From a virus, in IMG/VR virus record IMGVR_UViG_3300035670_000717, positions 1-35,866 of that record: 35,866 nucleotides of DNA; one strand, given 5' to 3'. Below, piece after piece: positions 21,189-35,866 of the stretch. The position numbers and the translations under genes were made by a program. The notes below the pieces were generated by a model. It worked only from the letters and a program-made list of their open reading frames with translations. It was not told the origin of the DNA and searched no databases. Numbering within the stretch: the first letter of the stretch is position 1; each line of letters begins with the position of its first letter.

Positions 21189-21342
21189 ACACAAGGAGAG
21201 TACTGTTGCGCGGCGTGCCGAGATGGCTAATATCCTGCGGCTGTGGGCACAGCGGCAGCACCCCCCGACCGACCTGTCTAAGGTGGTCGGCGCGATGCCA
21301 GACCTGCCGGACGGGTTCGGAGAGGAGGAAGCGGAATGCTGA
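21181..21342 (+). CDS. Small hypothetical protein (53 residues)
   Basis: From ATG 21181 in the third copy of the 18-base start module to TGA 21340-21342. The product begins MSEHKESTVARRAEMANIL and has a short helix plus an acidic proline-rich tail. The stop overlaps the next gene, whose ribosome-binding site (GAGGAGG) lies in its last codons. Function unknown; supported by site strength and tight packing. Confidence 0.55.
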   Translation: MSEHKESTVARRAEMANILRLWAQRQHPPTDLSKVVGAMPDLPDGFGEEEAEC

Positions 21343-21872
21343 AGGTGATTGATGAGTATGGGCACTGCAACGCGATGCTGGGGTTGTCACTCAGCAAGAA
21401 CGGCGACCTGCAACGTATGCCGCACATCGCAAAAGAACTGGCATGCATGGACAACGGCCACAACCAGTTTTTGCAACACATTTGCGTGTGGATTGATGTT
21501 CGCGCCAGCCGTGGCTGGTGGATTGAGGCCGCGAAATATCACTGGTTGGAGACACAGTCGGAAAGCACGACCCACTCTAAGTGGCCCAAAATATTCACCC
21601 GCCCCATGTTCTTCAACGGCCACCTGATCCCGAACCATGTATTCGAGATCTTGAACGACTTGCAGCGGGGCGATCTGCCCGACAGGCACGAGCGCATCAT
21701 GGCAGTACTCCCGGACAGCTATCTGCAACGGCGGATCTGCACAACGAACTACCAGCAGATCCGCACAATCGTCGCGCAACGGGCCAAGCACAAGCGCGAG
21801 GAATGGCAGACGTTCTGCCGGGAAATCCTCGCGCAGTTGGAACACCCGGAATACCTGCGCCGGAAACAATAG
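21336..21872 (+). CDS. Conserved phage protein of unknown function (RASRGWW / SESTTH type)
   Basis: 178 residues from ATG 21336, seven bases after GAGGAGG. It has several strongly motif-like segments: GHNQFLQHICVWIDVRASRGWWIEAAKYHW, split by SESTTHSKW, then VLPDSYLQRR, NYQQIRTIVAQRAKHKREEW and a final LEHPEYLRR. This plan (D-x-R/T-A-x3-WW-x-E, S-x-STMH-like motif, then YxxLxxIxxQRxxH) is known to me from a widespread family of uncharacterised phage early proteins. The histidine and acidic residues may form a metal or nucleotide site. The function is not known. Confidence 0.65.
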   Translation: MLKVIDEYGHCNAMLGLSLSKNGDLQRMPHIAKELACMDNGHNQFLQHICVWIDVRASRGWWIEAAKYHWLETQSESTTHSKWPKIFTRPMFFNGHLIPNHVFEILNDLQRGDLPDRHERIMAVLPDSYLQRRICTTNYQQIRTIVAQRAKHKREEWQTFCREILAQLEHPEYLRRKQ

Positions 21873-21881
21873 CCCACACCG

Positions 21882-21934
21882 CTCCGGGGTGGTGGCCCGT
21901 CGGCCCATTATGCCGCTGGTCTGCCGCCCCGGAG
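21882..21934 (+). promoter_or_regulatory. Inverted repeat in the gap before the helicase gene
   Basis: CTCCGGGG (21882-21889) and CCCCGGAG (21927-21934), 37-nt loop. There is no T run. It may be an RNA structure acting on the helicase start 20 bases downstream. Confidence 0.45.
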
Positions 21935-21954
21935 GGATAACACGAAAGAGGGAG

Positions 21955-23709
21955 ATGCAAGTGAGAACATTCAATGCGAAACAACGTCAAGCGGCAGAGC
22001 TTGTTCTTGGCAGAACCGGGGATGCTGACCACATTCAACCGTACTCTAAGGGAGGGGAAACAACCGTGGAGAACTGCCAGATCCTAAGCCCGACGGCCAA
22101 CAGGAAGAAGGGGGCGTTTCAATTCAAGCCACGTCTATGGCAAGAAGAGTTTCTTGAAGCGTGGAAACGTAGGACACAAGACACTCCGTTCATGTTGATC
22201 GCCATACCTGGCGGCGGGAAAACAATGGCCGCGCTTGAGGCGTGTAGGCAATGGATGGCGGCTGGGGCAGACAGGCGAGTGATAGTCGTTGTTCCGACAG
22301 ACAACCTCCGCGAGCAATGGAAGGACGAGGCAGAGAAATTCGGGATCTCCCTTCAGAGCAAGGAGTTCGGGACGGACTTCAAGCACGGGTTTCAGGGTGG
22401 TGTGGCAACCTACAATCTGGTGGCGAGTCAACCGTTGGTGTTTCGGAAGCTGTGTTCTGTTGCGCCAACGATGGTCATCTTTGACGAAATTCACCATTGC
22501 GGTGATGATGCTGCTTTCGGGCGTGGGGTAACGACCGCATTTGAGTTGGCTAAAGAGCGTCTACTGATGTCTGGCACTCCATGGAAGTCAGATGGAAGCG
22601 CAATCCCGTATGTCCGCTATGACGGAAACGGGTACGCTGTGGGTGACTTCTTCTACGATTACCCTCGGGCGCTTACTGAGGACGTTGTCCGGTATCTGGT
22701 CTTCGACCACTCCAAAGGCAGCATCACGAACGATTTCACCGGGGAAACGGCAGAAGTCAACAAAGAGATCACTGACGAAGAGGCGCAACAACGTCTGTAC
22801 AGGATTCTCAATGGCAATGGGGAGTACGTGAGAGAAACGATAACCCTCGCACACAAGCGGCTGACGGAATGTCGCCGCACGATGCCTGATGCAGCTGCCC
22901 TCGCGGCGTGCATCGACCAGAACCACGCGAGAATCGTTGCGGGGGTAATCAAGGAGGTTACCGGGTGTGAACCAAGCGTCATTGTCAGTGACAGCGAGTT
23001 CGAGAACGACAACGTCCGGGCCTTCAGAAACAGCAAAAAGGAGTGGCTGGTAGCGGTTCGAAAGGTGAGCGAAGGGACAGACATCAAGCGGCTTCAGGTT
23101 CTATGCTACCTGACGAACACGACCACTGAATTGTTCTTCCGGCAACTGATAGGTCGGGTATCGCGTATTCGGGGCGGAGAGGATTTCGAGGCATATGTTT
23201 TCCTCCCGGCAGACCCTCGCCTGATTCGGTGCGCAGAGAACATCGAGAACGCCCAGGTGCGTGCATTGCAGGAGGAGGGCGAACGGGAAAGCAGGGAGGT
23301 TGAGCGGGCTGAACGTCAGCTTGAGATCGGTTCCTACAGCACCACTCATGAAGGGACAGACGTTGCGTTCATTGGAAGTGAGCGGGTATCACTCAATGAA
23401 TACAGCCGCATCGAGCAGATAGCAGGGGCTGTTTCCCTCCCGATGCAGAAGGTTCTGCAAGTGCTTCAGATGACGGCGTTGTCTCCTCCTTCTGGCCGCG
23501 AAGAGACTCCTGTAGTTCAATGCAAAGAGGATAGGATGACCGAACTTCGACGAAGGTGCAACAAGCTGGCAGCTAGTCTCGCCCATAGGCTCGGGGTTGA
23601 GTTCAGGGAAGTACACATGTGGTACAAGCCACAATCCGCCATGTCCGAGGAAGAACTGCAATCCAAGCACAAAGACCTATTGGGGAGAATCAGAGAATGC
23701 AAGAGCTGA
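21955..23709 (+). CDS. SF2 (DEAD/DEAH-type) helicase with degenerate HNH domain at the N-terminus
   Basis: 584 residues from ATG 21955; GTG 21961 is an alternative with better spacing to GAGGGAG. Residues 22-53 keep the HNH outline (DADHIQPYSKGG, then N40 and N49-RKKG), but both zinc C-x2-C pairs seen in related HNH-helicase proteins are missing. The helicase core follows: Walker A AIPGGGKT (83-90), DEIH (177-180), SGTPW (206-210), and motif VI QLIGRVSRIR near residue 394. This is the SSL2/COG1061 group, found in phages and mobile elements. It may act in replication, recombination or counter-defence. A coiled segment follows near residue 440. Confidence 0.85.
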   Translation: MQVRTFNAKQRQAAELVLGRTGDADHIQPYSKGGETTVENCQILSPTANRKKGAFQFKPRLWQEEFLEAWKRRTQDTPFMLIAIPGGGKTMAALEACRQWMAAGADRRVIVVVPTDNLREQWKDEAEKFGISLQSKEFGTDFKHGFQGGVATYNLVASQPLVFRKLCSVAPTMVIFDEIHHCGDDAAFGRGVTTAFELAKERLLMSGTPWKSDGSAIPYVRYDGNGYAVGDFFYDYPRALTEDVVRYLVFDHSKGSITNDFTGETAEVNKEITDEEAQQRLYRILNGNGEYVRETITLAHKRLTECRRTMPDAAALAACIDQNHARIVAGVIKEVTGCEPSVIVSDSEFENDNVRAFRNSKKEWLVAVRKVSEGTDIKRLQVLCYLTNTTTELFFRQLIGRVSRIRGGEDFEAYVFLPADPRLIRCAENIENAQVRALQEEGERESREVERAERQLEIGSYSTTHEGTDVAFIGSERVSLNEYSRIEQIAGAVSLPMQKVLQVLQMTALSPPSGREETPVVQCKEDRMTELRRRCNKLAASLAHRLGVEFREVHMWYKPQSAMSEEELQSKHKDLLGRIRECKS

Positions 23710-24311: not shown

Positions 24312-24502
24312 CGAAGACACAACAGGAATCGTTGGCGCGAGTGATCGCCCTCGGGGAACAGACGGTGGAGCATTGTGATTGCATGCTGGGGCGGTCGCAT
24401 GCGCTCGATTGGCGGGAGTGGGAGGAACTACATGCGGCACGGGAACGGTTCGCGCATGGCGTGGTTTTGCTGCGGTATATGATGCAGGAGGCGAGTGCAT
24501 GA
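24308..24502 (+). CDS. Small hypothetical helical protein
   Basis: 64 residues, coupled by ATGA on both sides. Composition is helical with HCDC and several histidines (EHCDCMLGRSHALDW), so metal binding is possible. No family recognised. Confidence 0.55.
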   Translation: MTKTQQESLARVIALGEQTVEHCDCMLGRSHALDWREWEELHAARERFAHGVVLLRYMMQEASA

Positions 24503-25044
24503 CGGACGATATGTTTCCGGGTGAGTATGTCCGGTGTGAGGCGTGCGGGAATGGTTTTACGGAGCGGGTGTGGCATTGCGAGACGTGTGGGGCGCATTGG
24601 GGCCTCGACGTGTTCGAGTGCCGGGTCTGTCATGGCGACGAGGACGCAGACCTTGAGACCGAAAAGCGCAGGTGGTCGGAGGCCTTCGAGAACGCGCAGG
24701 CAACGCTTGCGGATGTCGCGATGCAAGAGGCCACCCAGGGACGGAAGGACGACAGCGGGAAGGCCAGGTTTGACCTTTTGCCGCCGGACGCGATGGATGA
24801 ACTGGTGCGGGTCTACACGACCGGGGCGCAACGATACGGTGAGCGGAACTGGGAACGGGGCATCCTCTATGGCAGGGTGTTTGCTGCGGCGATGCGTCAC
24901 CTGTGGGCGTGGTGGCGAGGGGAACGTCTCGACACCGAGAGCGGCCTCCCTCACCTCGCGCACGCCGCATGGAATTGCATGACCCTGTTGGCCTACGAAG
25001 TGCGCGGAATGGACGATTACGATGACCGCCCGGACTACTACTGA
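24499..25044 (+). CDS. dATP/dGTP diphosphohydrolase-like protein with N-terminal zinc knuckles
   Basis: 181 residues from ATG 24499. Residues 79-175 match the phage family known as DUF5664 or dATP/dGTP diphosphohydrolase N-terminal domain: GRKDDSGKARFDLLPPDAM, then GAQRYGERNWERGILYGRVFAAAMRHLWAWWRGE and SGLPHLAHAAWNCMTLLAYE. The helical bundle with conserved E, D and H residues probably binds Mg2+ and dNTP. Ahead of it are three C-x2-C pairs (C13/16, C27/30, C41/44), an additional zinc domain that I do not associate with the family. Likely role: alteration of the nucleotide pool. Confidence 0.75.
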   Translation: MTDDMFPGEYVRCEACGNGFTERVWHCETCGAHWGLDVFECRVCHGDEDADLETEKRRWSEAFENAQATLADVAMQEATQGRKDDSGKARFDLLPPDAMDELVRVYTTGAQRYGERNWERGILYGRVFAAAMRHLWAWWRGERLDTESGLPHLAHAAWNCMTLLAYEVRGMDDYDDRPDYY

Positions 25045-29716: not shown

Positions 29717-30700
29717 ATGGCAACTACACTCCAAAGCAACGTGGTCATTTACCACGACGAATACCAGGCGGGCATGTGGGAGGAACTCTCCCAGAATGCC
29801 AACGCCTTCAACGGCGCGTCCGCGAACGCGATCCAGCTGATCGGCAAGGAGCAGCTTGGCGCGTATTCAAAGGCCGCTTTCTGGAAGACCATCAGTACGC
29901 TGGTGGCCCGCCGGGACATCACCAGCACCAGTGCGGCGACCGCCCTCGCGGCCACGCAGAACGATGAGATCAGCGTGAAAGTCCACCGCAAGATTGGCCC
30001 GGTAGACGTGGCGTTTGACGCGCTGCGGGCCATCGGCGTTGGCGACCGTGAATTCTCCTTCCAGCTTGGTCAGCATGTTGCAAAGGCCAAGCTCGAGAAT
30101 ATGCTGAACACGGCACTCATTGCCGCTGAAGCTGCCATCGAGGGCAACAGCGCGATGAATAAGGACGTGACGGGCGAGACCACCAAGACGATCACGACCG
30201 ACTACCTCGTGCAGACCCTCGCGAAGATGGGCGACATGGGGGACAAGGTCGTAGCGTGGGTGATGCATTCCAAGCCGTATTACAACCTCGTCAGCGAGCA
30301 AATCACGGCTAAGATCGTGAACGTTGCTGACAAGGTTGTCTATGGCGGAAGCCCCGCCACCCTTGGGCGACCTGTCATAGTGACCGATGCTTCGGCGTTG
30401 ACCGACGCGAACGGAAGCGCGACCGACACGTACAACGTGCTTGGGCTTGTCTCCGGCGCGGTAACCGTGGTCGAGTCCGAGCAGGAGCAGATCGTTACCC
30501 AGACCGTTACCGGGCTGGAGAACCTCGTGCTTCGCTTGCAGGGCGAATTTGCGATCAACGTTGGCGTGTTGGGCTTCGAATGGGATATCGCGAACGGCGG
30601 GGCGACCCCGACCGACGCGACCCTCGGCACAACCACCAATTGGGATCAGGTCGCGACCAGCGACAAACACACGGCGGGCGTAAGGCTCAAGTGTCAGTAA
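29717..30700 (+). CDS. Major capsid protein
   Basis: 327 residues, preceded by GAGGAG. The pattern (helical N-terminal arm, KAAFWKTISTLVARRDITS, VKVHRKIGPVDVAFDALRAIG, GQHVAKAKLENMLNTALIAAEAAI, then GRPVIVTDASAL and a final beta region with IVTQTVTGLENLVLRLQGEFAINVGVLGFEWD in substance) fits a coat protein with HK97-type fold. It directly follows the scaffold gene. No separate head protease is visible, so maturation may rely on scaffold exit alone. Strong RNA hairpins follow its stop. Confidence 0.9.
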   Translation: MATTLQSNVVIYHDEYQAGMWEELSQNANAFNGASANAIQLIGKEQLGAYSKAAFWKTISTLVARRDITSTSAATALAATQNDEISVKVHRKIGPVDVAFDALRAIGVGDREFSFQLGQHVAKAKLENMLNTALIAAEAAIEGNSAMNKDVTGETTKTITTDYLVQTLAKMGDMGDKVVAWVMHSKPYYNLVSEQITAKIVNVADKVVYGGSPATLGRPVIVTDASALTDANGSATDTYNVLGLVSGAVTVVESEQEQIVTQTVTGLENLVLRLQGEFAINVGVLGFEWDIANGGATPTDATLGTTTNWDQVATSDKHTAGVRLKCQ

Positions 30701-30784: not shown

Positions 30785-31660
30785 ATGCAAGCGTTCATCT
30801 ATGAGAAACTCGCCAACCACTGCATCCCGGAACTCGTTGCTGGGTTGCAGGCCATCGGGTACTCGACCCGGCTGAAAAACCCCTTCGTGTTCGACGGGCC
30901 GGAACCGAACGTGGATTTGGTGGTCGTGCATGGCATTCGGCCACGGACAGGCGGGGCAATCCTCCGGGCGTACCAGGAGCGTGGTGTGCCCGTGCAGGTA
31001 CTTGAGCAGGGGTACTGGCGCAGGGCCGAGGGATATCGGCAGTATGGCGAGGCCGGGATAAATGTCATCCCGAACGGGCCATGCCCTATCGACCGGGCGC
31101 AAACCCAGGGGCTGATTGCCGGGGATCAGGTGGTCAGGCAGGACGGGTACGTGCTGGCAATCGGGCAGGTTCGCGGGGACATGCAGATTCCCGAGGACTG
31201 CCGGGACAGCGTCAACGAGTGGATACGGGAACGGGCCTCAGAGGTGGCGGAGCGATACGGGTGCCGATGGGTCTACAGACCGCACCCAATGGTGGAAGCC
31301 TCCTCGCAGACACTCGCTGACGCACTCGCCGGTGCGCGGGCCGTAGTTACTTGCACAAGCACGACGGCGTATGAGGCTATGGTCGGCGGGATTCCGGTGG
31401 TCTGTCATGCCGACGCGGTCTATACCTCGGTATGTCGGGAGGACATTACCCGGCTTGAGGTGCAGGGATTTTTGAACCGGGTAGCCTATGGGCAATGGCT
31501 CCCGGACGAGTTCGCACGGGGGTTGCCGTGGGGTCTACACACTCCTGAGACACGCAACACCAGCAGCACCACCGCAGAGGGCGCAACGCCTTCCCCCTCG
31601 GTGGCCCCCGTCGAAGAAATGCCCAAGCGGAAACGCGGGAGACCCCGCAAGAGTGGGTGA
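30785..31660 (+). CDS. Glycosyltransferase-like protein (KpsS/capsule type) with AT-hook tail
   Basis: 291 residues. The fold is of the GT-B type. It has strand-helix units starting at MQAFIYEKLANHCIPELVAGLQ, then DLVVVHGIRPRTGG, VQVLEQGYWRR, CRWVYRPHP (about 160-167) and ARAVVTCTSTTAYEAMVGGIPVVCHADAV, and the phage-specific ending RLEVQGFLNRVAYGQWLPDEFARGLPW. The HP and S/T-x-EA-x2-G-x-P motifs resemble capsule (Kdo) transferases. The last 11 residues (281-291, KRKRGRPRKSG) are a canonical AT-hook. It would modify virion proteins or, with the DNA-binding tail, DNA. It lies behind the coat gene. Confidence 0.7.
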   Translation: MQAFIYEKLANHCIPELVAGLQAIGYSTRLKNPFVFDGPEPNVDLVVVHGIRPRTGGAILRAYQERGVPVQVLEQGYWRRAEGYRQYGEAGINVIPNGPCPIDRAQTQGLIAGDQVVRQDGYVLAIGQVRGDMQIPEDCRDSVNEWIRERASEVAERYGCRWVYRPHPMVEASSQTLADALAGARAVVTCTSTTAYEAMVGGIPVVCHADAVYTSVCREDITRLEVQGFLNRVAYGQWLPDEFARGLPWGLHTPETRNTSSTTAEGATPSPSVAPVEEMPKRKRGRPRKSG

Positions 31661-31925
31661 CACGGTAGACATCACACCGGACGGGCCGCAGCACGACTGG
31701 GATGAGGACGACATAGAGAGTCGGTTGCGTGCAGCGTGGGACGAGGTGGCGGTGGCGCTGGCGGTGCGTGACCCGGTGGCACTCGACGGCGCGTGCTGCA
31801 TGGTGCGTCGGCTGGCGTACATGGCGCGGCGGGAGAGTCCGCCAGTGCGGGTAGAGCTGCGGTGCGGCGGTCGCGGCAGGCCGCTGTACGTACCGGACGA
31901 GACTGAGGACGACGGAGAGGTATAA
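31653..31925 (+). CDS. Small hypothetical head-region protein
   Basis: 90 residues from GTG 31653, overlapping the previous stop by 8 nt. The sequence is acidic at both ends (DWDEDDIESRLRAAWDEVAVAL and ETEDDGEV) with a basic middle (YMARRESPPVRVELRCGGRGR). No family recognised. The frame is open further upstream within the glycosyltransferase gene, but that part looks like a shadow. Position suggests a minor head or assembly protein. Confidence 0.6.
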   Translation: MGDTVDITPDGPQHDWDEDDIESRLRAAWDEVAVALAVRDPVALDGACCMVRRLAYMARRESPPVRVELRCGGRGRPLYVPDETEDDGEV

Positions 31926-32287: not shown

Positions 32288-33364
32288 ATGACTGTGTTCT
32301 ACGTCGATGGCGACAACGGCAACGACTCGAACGATGGGTCTACCGAGGCACTCGCGAAGGCCACTATACAGGCAGCAGTGAATGCAGTCACGGCAGACCG
32401 CGATGTGGTGTACATCCAGAATAACGGATCGACGGTGTACACCGAGCAGGTGACGTTGCCAGCATATGGTGTTTATCTCATAGGGTATGGCACCACGATT
32501 GGCGATAATGTGCGTGCCGTCATAGATGGGGAAGACACGCGCACGTACTGCATTTATCAGTCCACTAGCGATGAACTGTTTCTCTACAACATGGAGATCC
32601 GAAACGCGACATCACACGGCTTGTCTACAGTAGGTGCTGGTAAGTTATTTAACGTACACGCACATGATAACGGGGGGGATGGGCACCGTGTTACCACGGG
32701 CAACGAACATCAGGCGTGGTTTTTCTGCACGTTCAACGACAATGGTGGCAACGGGCTATACAACCTAAACGGAAACGCAATTCCTTCGCCAGTATGGTAT
32801 TGCGATTTTTACAATAACACCGGACATGGGGTGTTTGGTTACATTCTTATCGCGTATCGTTGTCGTTATGTGAAAAATAATACTGGTGCATACATTATTT
32901 CTGGAAACGGATTCCAGATTCAGTGTATCTTTGACAGTAATGCGCAACACGGGGCATACGGGTATTACACGCATTACTGCGACTGTATCTCCAGCAACAA
33001 CGGCTCGTATGGCTATGCAACATGGGCTACTCCATCATATGTACATCTCGTAAATTGTAACGATTATCAAAATGTCAGCGGACGTAATAATCGGTCTGTA
33101 GCAGAAGACTTAGACATTAACCCCGTCTCGACTAACCCAGACTTCATTGCTCCGTACTCAGTCACGAATACGGATCTCGCCGATCTCGATTACCATGTGG
33201 GCGCGTCGAGTGACTGCGCCGATTATGCCTCATATATCGGTTGCCTGAACACGAATGCGGCGGCAAAGACCATGCACGACCTTGGCGCACAGGACAGGCA
33301 AGATCCAACAGTTGGGGTCAACAGATCCCTTGGTCGCTATAACAGGTTCGGAGTATTCCCATGA
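32288..33364 (+). CDS. Right-handed parallel beta-helix protein (tailspike/depolymerase-like)
   Basis: 358 residues. After a DUF1565-like start (FYVDGDNGNDSNDGSTEALAKATIQAAVNAV), the sequence has about eight coils of about 22-24 residues with a pattern like x-C-x-F-x2-N-x-G-x-G-x-Y; nearly every coil has a cysteine at the same place (WFFCTFNDNGGNG, VWYCDFYNNTGHG, YRCRYVKNNTGAY). This is the pectate-lyase-like fold used by phage spikes to bind or cut polysaccharide. The DNA (32400-33100) is much less GC-rich than its neighbours, which suggests horizontal acquisition. Catalytic residues cannot be assigned. Confidence 0.82.
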   Translation: MTVFYVDGDNGNDSNDGSTEALAKATIQAAVNAVTADRDVVYIQNNGSTVYTEQVTLPAYGVYLIGYGTTIGDNVRAVIDGEDTRTYCIYQSTSDELFLYNMEIRNATSHGLSTVGAGKLFNVHAHDNGGDGHRVTTGNEHQAWFFCTFNDNGGNGLYNLNGNAIPSPVWYCDFYNNTGHGVFGYILIAYRCRYVKNNTGAYIISGNGFQIQCIFDSNAQHGAYGYYTHYCDCISSNNGSYGYATWATPSYVHLVNCNDYQNVSGRNNRSVAEDLDINPVSTNPDFIAPYSVTNTDLADLDYHVGASSDCADYASYIGCLNTNAAAKTMHDLGAQDRQDPTVGVNRSLGRYNRFGVFP

Positions 33365-33750
33365 GTACCAGACGTGTGGTTAACTACGATACAGGCAAGA
33401 CGCTGAAGGCGATCATCACGCGCCTGACCGATGGGTACGTCTGGAACACCAGCGGCACCCCGGCGTTCGAGACGTACAATGCGTCGAACATCGCCAACTA
33501 TGGCGTTGCTCTTACTGAGCAGGGCGCATCCGGGAGGTACGTCCTGACCATGCCCTCACTCGCGGCAGGGGTCTACGACCTTGATGTGCGGGTGCTGACC
33601 GGGGCCAGTCTGGCGCAGTCTGATACCCACGTGGCTGGGGGCGTGGTCGAGTGGGGTGGCAGCAAATTCGGGGCGAAACTTGGGCAATGGAAACACACGC
33701 TGGACAGCGGTTCGTCTGGCGTTGACACGGTAACAGTAAGCGAGGTATAG
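33361..33750 (+). CDS. Small beta-rich virion protein
   Basis: 129 residues, coupled to the beta-helix gene by ATGA. The sequence TLKAIITRLTDGYVWNTSG, then GRYVLTMPSLAAGVYDLDVRVL is like an Ig or fibronectin-like beta sandwich with a final GSSGVDTVTVSEV strand. Similar modules are found next to phage head fibres. It may join fibre components. No enzyme motif. Confidence 0.6.
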   Translation: MSTRRVVNYDTGKTLKAIITRLTDGYVWNTSGTPAFETYNASNIANYGVALTEQGASGRYVLTMPSLAAGVYDLDVRVLTGASLAQSDTHVAGGVVEWGGSKFGAKLGQWKHTLDSGSSGVDTVTVSEV

Positions 33751-33752
33751 AC

Positions 33753-34088
33753 ATGGCATTTTCAACGACAGCGAAAAACAGCATGCTGGGGGCGATCACC
33801 CCGGACCAGATGCAACTTCATTCCGGCGATCCCGGTGCGGCGGGTACAAGCAACGCAGTAGGCAGCAAGACTGCGTGCAGCTTTGCTGCGGCTTCCAGTG
33901 GTTCTCGTGCCCTGTCCGCGCAGGTCAACTTCACTGGCTTGGGTGCGTCTCAGGCGGTGAGTTACTTCTCTGTCTGGGGTAGTTCCGGTACGGTATTCCT
34001 CGGCAGTGGCACGCTGACCGGAGACAGTGCTGCTAATGCGTCTGGCGAGTATTCCGTCACGACCAGCACTACCCTCAGCCTGAGTTAA
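33753..34088 (+). CDS. Fibre-associated protein (AKNSMLGAI / HSGDPGAAG family)
   Basis: 111 residues, with GCGAGG upstream. The start MAFSTTAKNSMLGAI, followed by MQLHSGDPGAAGTSN, is typical of a widespread phage protein annotated as tail fibre or appendage component. The rest is serine-glycine-rich beta structure (YFSVWGSSGTVFLGSGTLTGD). In this genome it lies on the capsid side of the gene order, so a capsid fibre is possible as well. Confidence 0.7.
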   Translation: MAFSTTAKNSMLGAITPDQMQLHSGDPGAAGTSNAVGSKTACSFAAASSGSRALSAQVNFTGLGASQAVSYFSVWGSSGTVFLGSGTLTGDSAANASGEYSVTTSTTLSLS

Positions 34089-34092
34089 GCAT

Positions 34093-35619
34093 GTGGCTAC
34101 CGAGACCTTCACTACCAGCGGCACTTGGTCAAAACCTGCGGGCGTAACGTCTGTTACGGTCGAGTGCTGGGGTGCTGGAGGTGCTGGTGGTTCAGGCAGC
34201 AACAACGGTGGAACGGTTTTTGGCGGTGGCGGTGGCGCGGGTGGAAACTACGCCCGTTCCACCCTGACCTACAACAGTGCGTCCCAGAACATCAGCTACA
34301 CGGTTGGTGCATCCCAGAACACTGGTGGTGGCGGGGCCACGTATTGGAACACCAATCAAGTTTTTGCAAACGGTGGTGCTGCTGGAAACAATGCTTCTGG
34401 TGTCGGTTCCGGTGTTGGTGGCACGGCATTTTTATCCTCTGATATCGGAACGACTAAATATGCAGGTGGATCTGGAGCGTCTGGAGTCACCAATAGTTAC
34501 GGTGGAGGTGGGGGTGGTGGAGCAGGGTCATCTGGCGCGGGTGGTGCAGCCTCTGGCAGCACAGCGGGTACAGGTGGCTCTGGTGGCGGCGGAAACGGTG
34601 GCGCGGGAAGTGTTACGCCAAACACTTCCGGGGGTAATGGGACTGCCCCCGGTGGGGCAGGTGGTGGCGGGTATCGCACGTCCTCCCGATCGTATGGTGC
34701 GGCTGGGAAAATAATCATCACCTATGAGACTGCATCGATTCCTACTGGAAGCGGGTCGGTGTCCGGGACAGGCACCCTGTCTGCCACGGGCGACATGCCC
34801 CCGCAGGATGGATATGGGTCCGTCTCAGGCACTGGGTCGCTGTCGGCGACGGGCGCGTCTATCCACTATGGCAGTGGGGATGCGTCTACCTCCGGGGTGC
34901 TGTCGGCTACGGGCGATATGCCTCCGCTCGATGGATACGGAGACATCTCCGGGACAGGCGCACTCGCGGCGACGGGCGATGCGCCGACGATCATGGCGGC
35001 GTATCCCAAGACACGTGCGAACGCCTACCCACACACCTATGGGCGCACAACGTCTCAGGCGGCGTCTCCGACTGGGTATGGGTCTGTCTCGGCGACCGGG
35101 GCAGTTGCTGGTGTCGGACGGGCAACCAAGTCCGCTTATGGGTCCATCCTTGCGGCATCTGGGTTGGTCGCCCTGGGTGACGCCCCACCCAACACGGGCA
35201 GTGGGACTGTCTCGGCCACCGGGACACTGTCGGCAACGGGGAAGGCGTCCCATTATGGGACTGGGTCCGTTTCCGCCACCGGGACACTGAGTGCGACGGG
35301 TGTCGCCCCCGCTATAGGTGCTTCCGAGGGCTATGGGTCCACCTCGGCCACAGGAACCCTTGCGGCCATGGGCCTGTCTGTACGGTACGGGGTCGGTAGC
35401 GTTGCGTCTATCGGGGCGCTGTCGGCCACAGGAGATATGCCGCCGCTCGACGGGTATGGGGCGGTCTCTGGTGCGGGTGTGCTGTCGGCGACAGGAGTCC
35501 ACCTCCCAAAGGGCACGGGCACACTCACCTCTATGGGCAGCATGGAGGGGGTTGGGCAGACCCCGCTTATTGTCGCTTTCCGGCCCGTATGGGCACAACA
35601 TGCTACGGTGGTATTATGA
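34093..35619 (+). CDS. Glycine-rich adhesin with about 12 GxGSVSxTGxLSATG repeats
   Basis: 508 residues from GTG 34093. The first 215 residues are a Gly_rich-type domain: TETFTTSGTWSKPAGVTSV, then polyglycine segments alternating with serine and alanine (e.g. GGGGGGGAGSSGAGG), like polyproline-II adhesins in phage fibre tips. From about residue 219, about twelve copies of GYGSVSGTGSLSATG-like units follow every 18-26 residues, three with a DMPPxDG linker. Unit four has a 30-residue insertion (near residues 297-330). A repetitive stalk with adhesive head is inferred. It overlaps the Ig-like gene by 4 nt. Confidence 0.78.
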   Translation: MATETFTTSGTWSKPAGVTSVTVECWGAGGAGGSGSNNGGTVFGGGGGAGGNYARSTLTYNSASQNISYTVGASQNTGGGGATYWNTNQVFANGGAAGNNASGVGSGVGGTAFLSSDIGTTKYAGGSGASGVTNSYGGGGGGGAGSSGAGGAASGSTAGTGGSGGGGNGGAGSVTPNTSGGNGTAPGGAGGGGYRTSSRSYGAAGKIIITYETASIPTGSGSVSGTGTLSATGDMPPQDGYGSVSGTGSLSATGASIHYGSGDASTSGVLSATGDMPPLDGYGDISGTGALAATGDAPTIMAAYPKTRANAYPHTYGRTTSQAASPTGYGSVSATGAVAGVGRATKSAYGSILAASGLVALGDAPPNTGSGTVSATGTLSATGKASHYGTGSVSATGTLSATGVAPAIGASEGYGSTSATGTLAAMGLSVRYGVGSVASIGALSATGDMPPLDGYGAVSGAGVLSATGVHLPKGTGTLTSMGSMEGVGQTPLIVAFRPVWAQHATVVL

Positions 35620-35866
35620 TCCGAAACTATGCAGGACAGACGGTCAGCTTCCAGATGCTCAGCGTGACGACGGGTGCTGCCATGACCACAGGCACCCCCA
35701 CTGTGATGGTCTCCTTGGACAGGGCAACTCCCACTGTGGGCGCAGGAACGTGTACGCACGCAGGCGACGGGGCGTGGGACTACGCGCCCACGCAGGCGGA
35801 GACCGATGGTGCGCACTGTCGGTACACCTGTACACTGGACGGGGCGATCACGCAGACGGTGCAGGT
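35616..35866 (+). CDS. Ig-like virion surface protein, 5' part (continues at 1-395)
   Basis: The gene starts at ATG 35616, overlapping the adhesin stop as ATGA, and is cut by the end of the window. After the joint it continues in frame through the start of the window to 395, giving 172 residues in all. The N-terminal part is MIRNYAGQTVSFQML and a beta-rich segment with TPTVMVSLDRATPTVGAG. Fold and neighbours suggest a decoration or adhesin component of the virion. Bases 35740-35866 are the duplicated overlap and should be counted once. Confidence 0.85.
   Translation, partial: MIRNYAGQTVSFQMLSVTTGAAMTTGTPTVMVSLDRATPTVGAGTCTHAGDGAWDYAPTQAETDGAHCRYTCTLDGAITQTVQ
35740..35866. repeat. Right copy of 127-bp terminal repeat
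   Basis: Exact copy of bases 1-127. Joining the two copies restores an open 172-codon gene (35616 to 395), which shows that the molecule is circular or circularly permuted with a unique length of 35,739 bp. Confidence 0.95.

Follow-up and report, generated by a model that had tools for sequence, protein, structure and literature searches.

A capsule-type glycosyltransferase with an AT-hook-like tail behind the capsid gene of a predicted temperate phage

Described systems and the phage locus

KpsC (GT107) and WbbB (GT99) are retaining beta-Kdo transferases with a modified GT-B fold, in which a QxxxD motif holds the aspartate nucleophile (PMC10148158, PMC12887879) and an HP motif binds CMP (PMC12887879). 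The fold and both motifs recur in the phage enzyme described here, with a Glu that aligns weakly to that of KpsC, but this enzyme consists of a single domain of about 250 aa, is encoded in a phage head module and carries a basic tail. Capsule_synth-like enzymes are also present in other phages, such as the Manatee Spring phage ct7QV12 and the Caulobacter bertelyviruses. They show about 20-35% identity to our enzyme over the domain, share its C-terminal motif and are encoded in glycan cassettes linked to head and packaging genes. While most cassette enzymes adjoin methyltransferases and sugar enzymes, the one described here stands alone and has a tail.

A precedent for virion glycosylation is provided by the cluster F mycobacteriophages Che8 and Rita, whose major capsid protein is reported to carry glycans linked to phage-encoded glycosyltransferases (cited in PMC11256854). 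The genes for these transferases are located near the 3' end of the genome in the F1 phage Maravista, unlike the arrangement found here. In the T4-type system of DNA-base glycosyltransferases, synthesis of the hydroxymethyl base is co-encoded. AT-hook-like tails also occur on small phage proteins, in which an often P/A/E-rich linker is followed by an RGRPRKxx end, as in our enzyme; the carriers found were 50-220 aa long and none was of this enzyme type.

The window, that is the whole stretch of DNA analysed, comprises positions 1 to 35,866 of the viral IMG/VR record IMGVR_UViG_3300035670_000717 and has a GC content of 59%. Because of an exact 127-bp direct repeat at its ends (1-127 and 35740-35866), it is probably a circular genome recovered in full, with a length of about 35.7 kb. 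A 181-aa ORF starting at 35589 spans the circular join. Genes for portal, scaffold, terminase, tape-measure protein, endolysin and an integrase (Phage_integrase) are present, which indicates that the phage is temperate and has a tail module of siphovirus type. A repressor-like ORF adjoins the integrase gene. Elsewhere, at 21889-23709, an N-terminal HNH motif is fused to a DEAD/ResIII-type helicase. The region around the transferase gene is organised as follows.

29717 to 30700, plus strand: major capsid protein, Gp13-like (PF20036, E 7.9e-92; phrog_247)
30785 to 31660, plus strand: transferase ORF, 291 aa, ATG start; Capsule_synth/Kdo-transferase-like glycosyltransferase with a basic C-terminal tail
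31653 to 31925, plus strand: probable next gene, GTG start, 90 aa; frame taken from the ORF 31488-31925
32288 to 35619, plus strand: putative head-fibre/decoration genes (32288-33364, 33361-33750, 33753-34088, 34093-35619), candidate substrates

The transferase ORF begins 84 bp behind the capsid gene, and its end shares 8 nt with the next gene, for which no family match was obtained. Among the putative head-fibre genes, 33753-34088 matches the phrog_240 head protein (E 3.4e-18) and 34093-35619 matches phrog_863 (E 2.6e-6); the fraction of Ser plus Thr is 0.32 and 0.26, respectively.

Family, fold and motifs of the enzyme

The segments of the enzyme relevant to its assignment are listed below.

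30785 to 31540, plus strand: catalytic domain, residues 1-252, ending in a C-terminal motif common to the relatives
31004 to 31006, plus strand: E74, weakly aligned with the KpsC general base Glu66 (LEDG / LEQG)
31166 to 31180, plus strand: QVRGD, residues 128-132, QxxxD motif, profile-aligned to QTFND of KpsC
31277 to 31288, plus strand: RPHP, residues 165-168, with the CMP-binding HP motif H167-P168

Residues 1 to about 252 match Capsule_synth (PF05159) with 31.9 bits at a cut-off of 20, and the mean pLDDT of an AlphaFold model, for which 30 relatives were used, is 84. The best matches of the model among solved structures are KpsC and WbbB. With Foldseek, the model was aligned to KpsC with an E-value of 3.7e-8 and a probability of 1.00, at modest TM-scores of at most 0.52. 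Similarity of the single sequence to these structures is not detectable, a PDB search with the transferase yielding chance matches only, but the family profile hits KpsC with an E-value of 5e-7 in a region covering QxxxD and HP.

Within the 31 sequences, Q128 is conserved in 30, D132 in 29, H167 in 30 and P168 in all. E74 is E in 28 of 31, and the KpsC alignment scores poorly in this region. There is no His between residues 50 and 166, so that the catalytic His94 of KpsC has no counterpart. The domain end follows the family-conserved pattern ..FLNRVAYGQW..DEF..GLPW.LH, with A234, E242 and G246 found in 31 of 31 sequences.

A preliminary description, made from the sequence alone, had reported a glycosyltransferase of GT-B capsule type directly after the coat gene; the ORF is real, and position and fold are borne out by the results above. 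Its HP and S/T-EA-G-P motifs (S192, EA197-198, G202-P204) are kept in the relatives, with the qualification that 13 of the 31 sequences have E and another 13 have D at position 197. The QxxxD motif, indicative of a mechanism of the Kdo-transferase kind, had escaped that description. The protein is firmly placed among capsule-type enzymes and a mechanism like that of the Kdo transferases is likely. From sequence and model we infer a likeness to the beta-Kdo transferases, and the enzyme is not filed as a member of GT99, GT107 or GT140.

Relatives, gene neighbourhood and putative target

Single-protein searches of viral contigs revealed no close relatives of the transferase or the capsid protein. 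About 45 related loci were collected, some of them duplicates; L008 is partly masked and L233 is partial. Nearly all are viral, and most lie in or beside head and packaging modules, where methyltransferases, sugar-nucleotide enzymes and further glycosyltransferases are frequent neighbours. The 118 neighbours from 21 of these loci include methyltransferases (18), GDP-mannose dehydratase (6), DegT aminotransferase (5), GT8 (5) and GT9 (3) enzymes, DnaT_2 head completion proteins (8) and P22-type coat proteins (5); adaptor and terminase genes also occur.

Two relatives share the position behind the capsid gene. In locus L234, the enzyme ORF starts 17 nt behind a capsid gene, and a head-completion-like gene comes after the enzyme; the capsid protein of L234 shares 44% identity with that of the window. 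L130, which gave the best tblastn E-value among the relatives, is likewise syntenic. Its ORF (L130:5818-6705) lies in the corresponding position, after the scaffold and capsid genes, and has no QxxxD motif; judged by sequence, this enzyme is possibly inactive or altered. In eight phages with Gp13-like capsids, the slot behind the capsid gene usually contains a small variable accessory or head-tail protein. The slot is therefore a place for accessory head genes, which makes a virion target the simplest reading.

With slightly better than even confidence, the product of 30785-31660 is regarded as a soluble retaining Kdo-transferase-like glycosyltransferase that decorates a component of the virion; judged by gene context alone, the target is on balance more probably a virion component. 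Asp132 of QVRGD would attack a CMP-activated ulosonic sugar, for which host CMP-Kdo is the simplest candidate, while the HP motif would hold the nucleotide and Glu74 would activate the acceptor. The enzyme is probably made late, together with the head genes, and its target may be the capsid or the head-fibre proteins, rich in S, T and G, whose genes lie a short way downstream. Judging from the sugar-nucleotide enzymes in the cassettes of the relatives, donors other than CMP-Kdo could be used. The missing counterpart of His94, the modest TM-scores, the chance-only PDB matches of the single sequence and the L130 enzyme count against this proposal. The analysis links Kdo-transferase-like enzymes of phages, a family with few descriptions so far, to head modules, so that virion glycosylation in these phages can be tested directly.

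Since known members of the fold build capsule and LPS, and since the phage is temperate, with an integrase and its adjoining repressor-like ORF, the enzyme might instead act on a glycan of the host surface, such as capsule or LPS, and thereby, for instance, prevent superinfection or change a receptor; the position behind the capsid gene would then be a cargo site. This is considered rather unlikely, because the gene sits within the head module and not in a region for lysogeny, the head modules of unrelated phages repeatedly contain relatives, and a gene for a membrane-anchoring partner was not seen.

Two observations concern gene order at other loci. In L004, L135, L141 and L150 (about 2-9 kb of each), a similar order is found among several phages: genes for proteins of about 380 aa, a small one, about 250 aa, about 330 aa (sugar-dehydratase-sized) and about 205 aa (methyltransferase-sized) precede the transferase family member, which in most is followed by a head-completion-type gene. 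In L234, a methyltransferase-like gene (L234:1653-2465) lies between portal and minor head genes.

The basic C-terminal tail

31541 to 31657, plus strand: C-terminal extension, residues 253-291, with an S/T/P/A-rich linker and a basic end
31625 to 31651, plus strand: AT-hook-like KRKRGRPRK, residues 281-289, by direct reading; GRP core with basic flanks

Residues 256-280 are predicted to be disordered (AlphaFold pLDDT below 50). The last 11 residues, 281-291, read KRKRGRPRKSG, exactly as in the preliminary description. The term canonical AT-hook used there was slightly strong, Pfam AT_hook (PF02178) giving 10 bits at a cut-off of 17.4. From amino-acid frequencies, about 9e-5 occurrences of [KR][KR]GRP[KR] are expected in the last 12 residues when 46 genes are taken. 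A chance origin of the tail was rejected by composition and by a scrambled-pattern control. Conservation of the AT-hook in the family was rejected as well: none of the other relatives with a readable C-terminus has one, and nearly all lack the extension 253-291, the family domain stopping at the shared W/H motif. Only L234 has a comparable, P/A/E-rich linker and a basic end, PRRQRSQRRSA, without GRP. The tail is a modular phage add-on, here on an enzyme. Literature searches yielded no publication describing a phage glycosyltransferase that carries an AT-hook.

The AT-hook-like tail and an encoded dNTP-pool enzyme (dGTP_diPhyd_N) would fit an enzyme anchored to phage DNA that glycosylates a modified base. 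This reading is highly improbable and was rejected, since no base-modification pathway was found: in agreement with the preliminary description, scans of a genome that looks complete revealed no gene for hydroxymethyl-base synthesis. In addition, the fold matches are Kdo transferases and not T4 DNA glucosyltransferases, and the relatives have no AT-hook. The head-module context, together with the finding of no hydroxylated-base gene, makes a role on the virion likelier than DNA glycosylation, and the preference given earlier to virion proteins over DNA agrees with the head and packaging context of the relatives. The suggestion that the tail defines a DNA-directed enzyme could not be upheld, because the AT-hook is absent from the other relatives with a readable C-terminus and many small phage proteins of unrelated kinds carry a tail of this type. 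For the proposed virion-decorating enzyme, anchoring to DNA by the tail is plausible from its sequence; the tail may raise the local enzyme concentration near nascent phage DNA or heads, and would not make DNA the substrate.

A dATP/dGTP diphosphohydrolase N-terminal domain (PF18909, E 7e-35) is encoded at 24379-25044. A Thy1 match at 21336-21872 was dismissed, with 18.7 bits at a cut-off of 24.8 and no RHR, the ThyX motif. No adenylosuccinate-synthase-type gene was reported in the genome scans.

The codons of the AT-hook contain a Shine-Dalgarno-like GGGAGA about 10 nt before the GTG at 31653, and the tail codons of L234 likewise contain GGAGG ahead of the next start. These sites, and the absence of the GRP core in L234, would be expected if the tail had no binding role and had either arisen by sequence drift or followed from encoding a ribosome site for the overlapping gene. 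This explanation concerns the tail only, is compatible with the favoured reading of the enzyme and is somewhat unlikely. The Shine-Dalgarno-like sequence may account for one or two Arg, not for the whole basic patch; a ribosome site would not require as many as seven basic residues out of nine, and an origin of the tail wholly as a by-product of such a site is unlikely. Also in the AT-hook codons before the GTG, at 31635-31648, is a perfect 5-bp hairpin, GCGGG-AGAC-CCCGC, which may be due to chance.

A further argument against a tail without binding role comes from its distribution in phages. The pattern RGRP[RS]Kxx-stop, in which the codons of the first two Arg were set to CGN, gave at least 120 matches. 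Among the matches listed, 97 of 120 end ORFs of at least 50 aa, falling into 59 clusters, compared to 8 of the 68 matches obtained with a scrambled pattern. C-terminal RGRPRK tails are therefore strongly enriched in phages, even with these codons fixed, and are a recurrent, selected add-on of phage proteins. The present enzyme type is not among the 97 listed carriers, in which few known families are represented (HNH endonucleases, head-tail connectors, dUTPase). The genes upstream of tail carriers include several capsid genes. AT-hook-like tails might be a general phage tether keeping accessory proteins on replicating or packaging DNA at head assembly, the tethered protein here being a Kdo-transferase-like enzyme for virion glycosylation; taken together, these two statements are a speculative and unlikely combination.

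In the IMG/VR loci L010-L129 (e.g. L013:460-918 and L127:4839-5030), RGRPRK tails follow disordered-looking linkers in small phage proteins, and some of these genes are located directly behind capsid genes.
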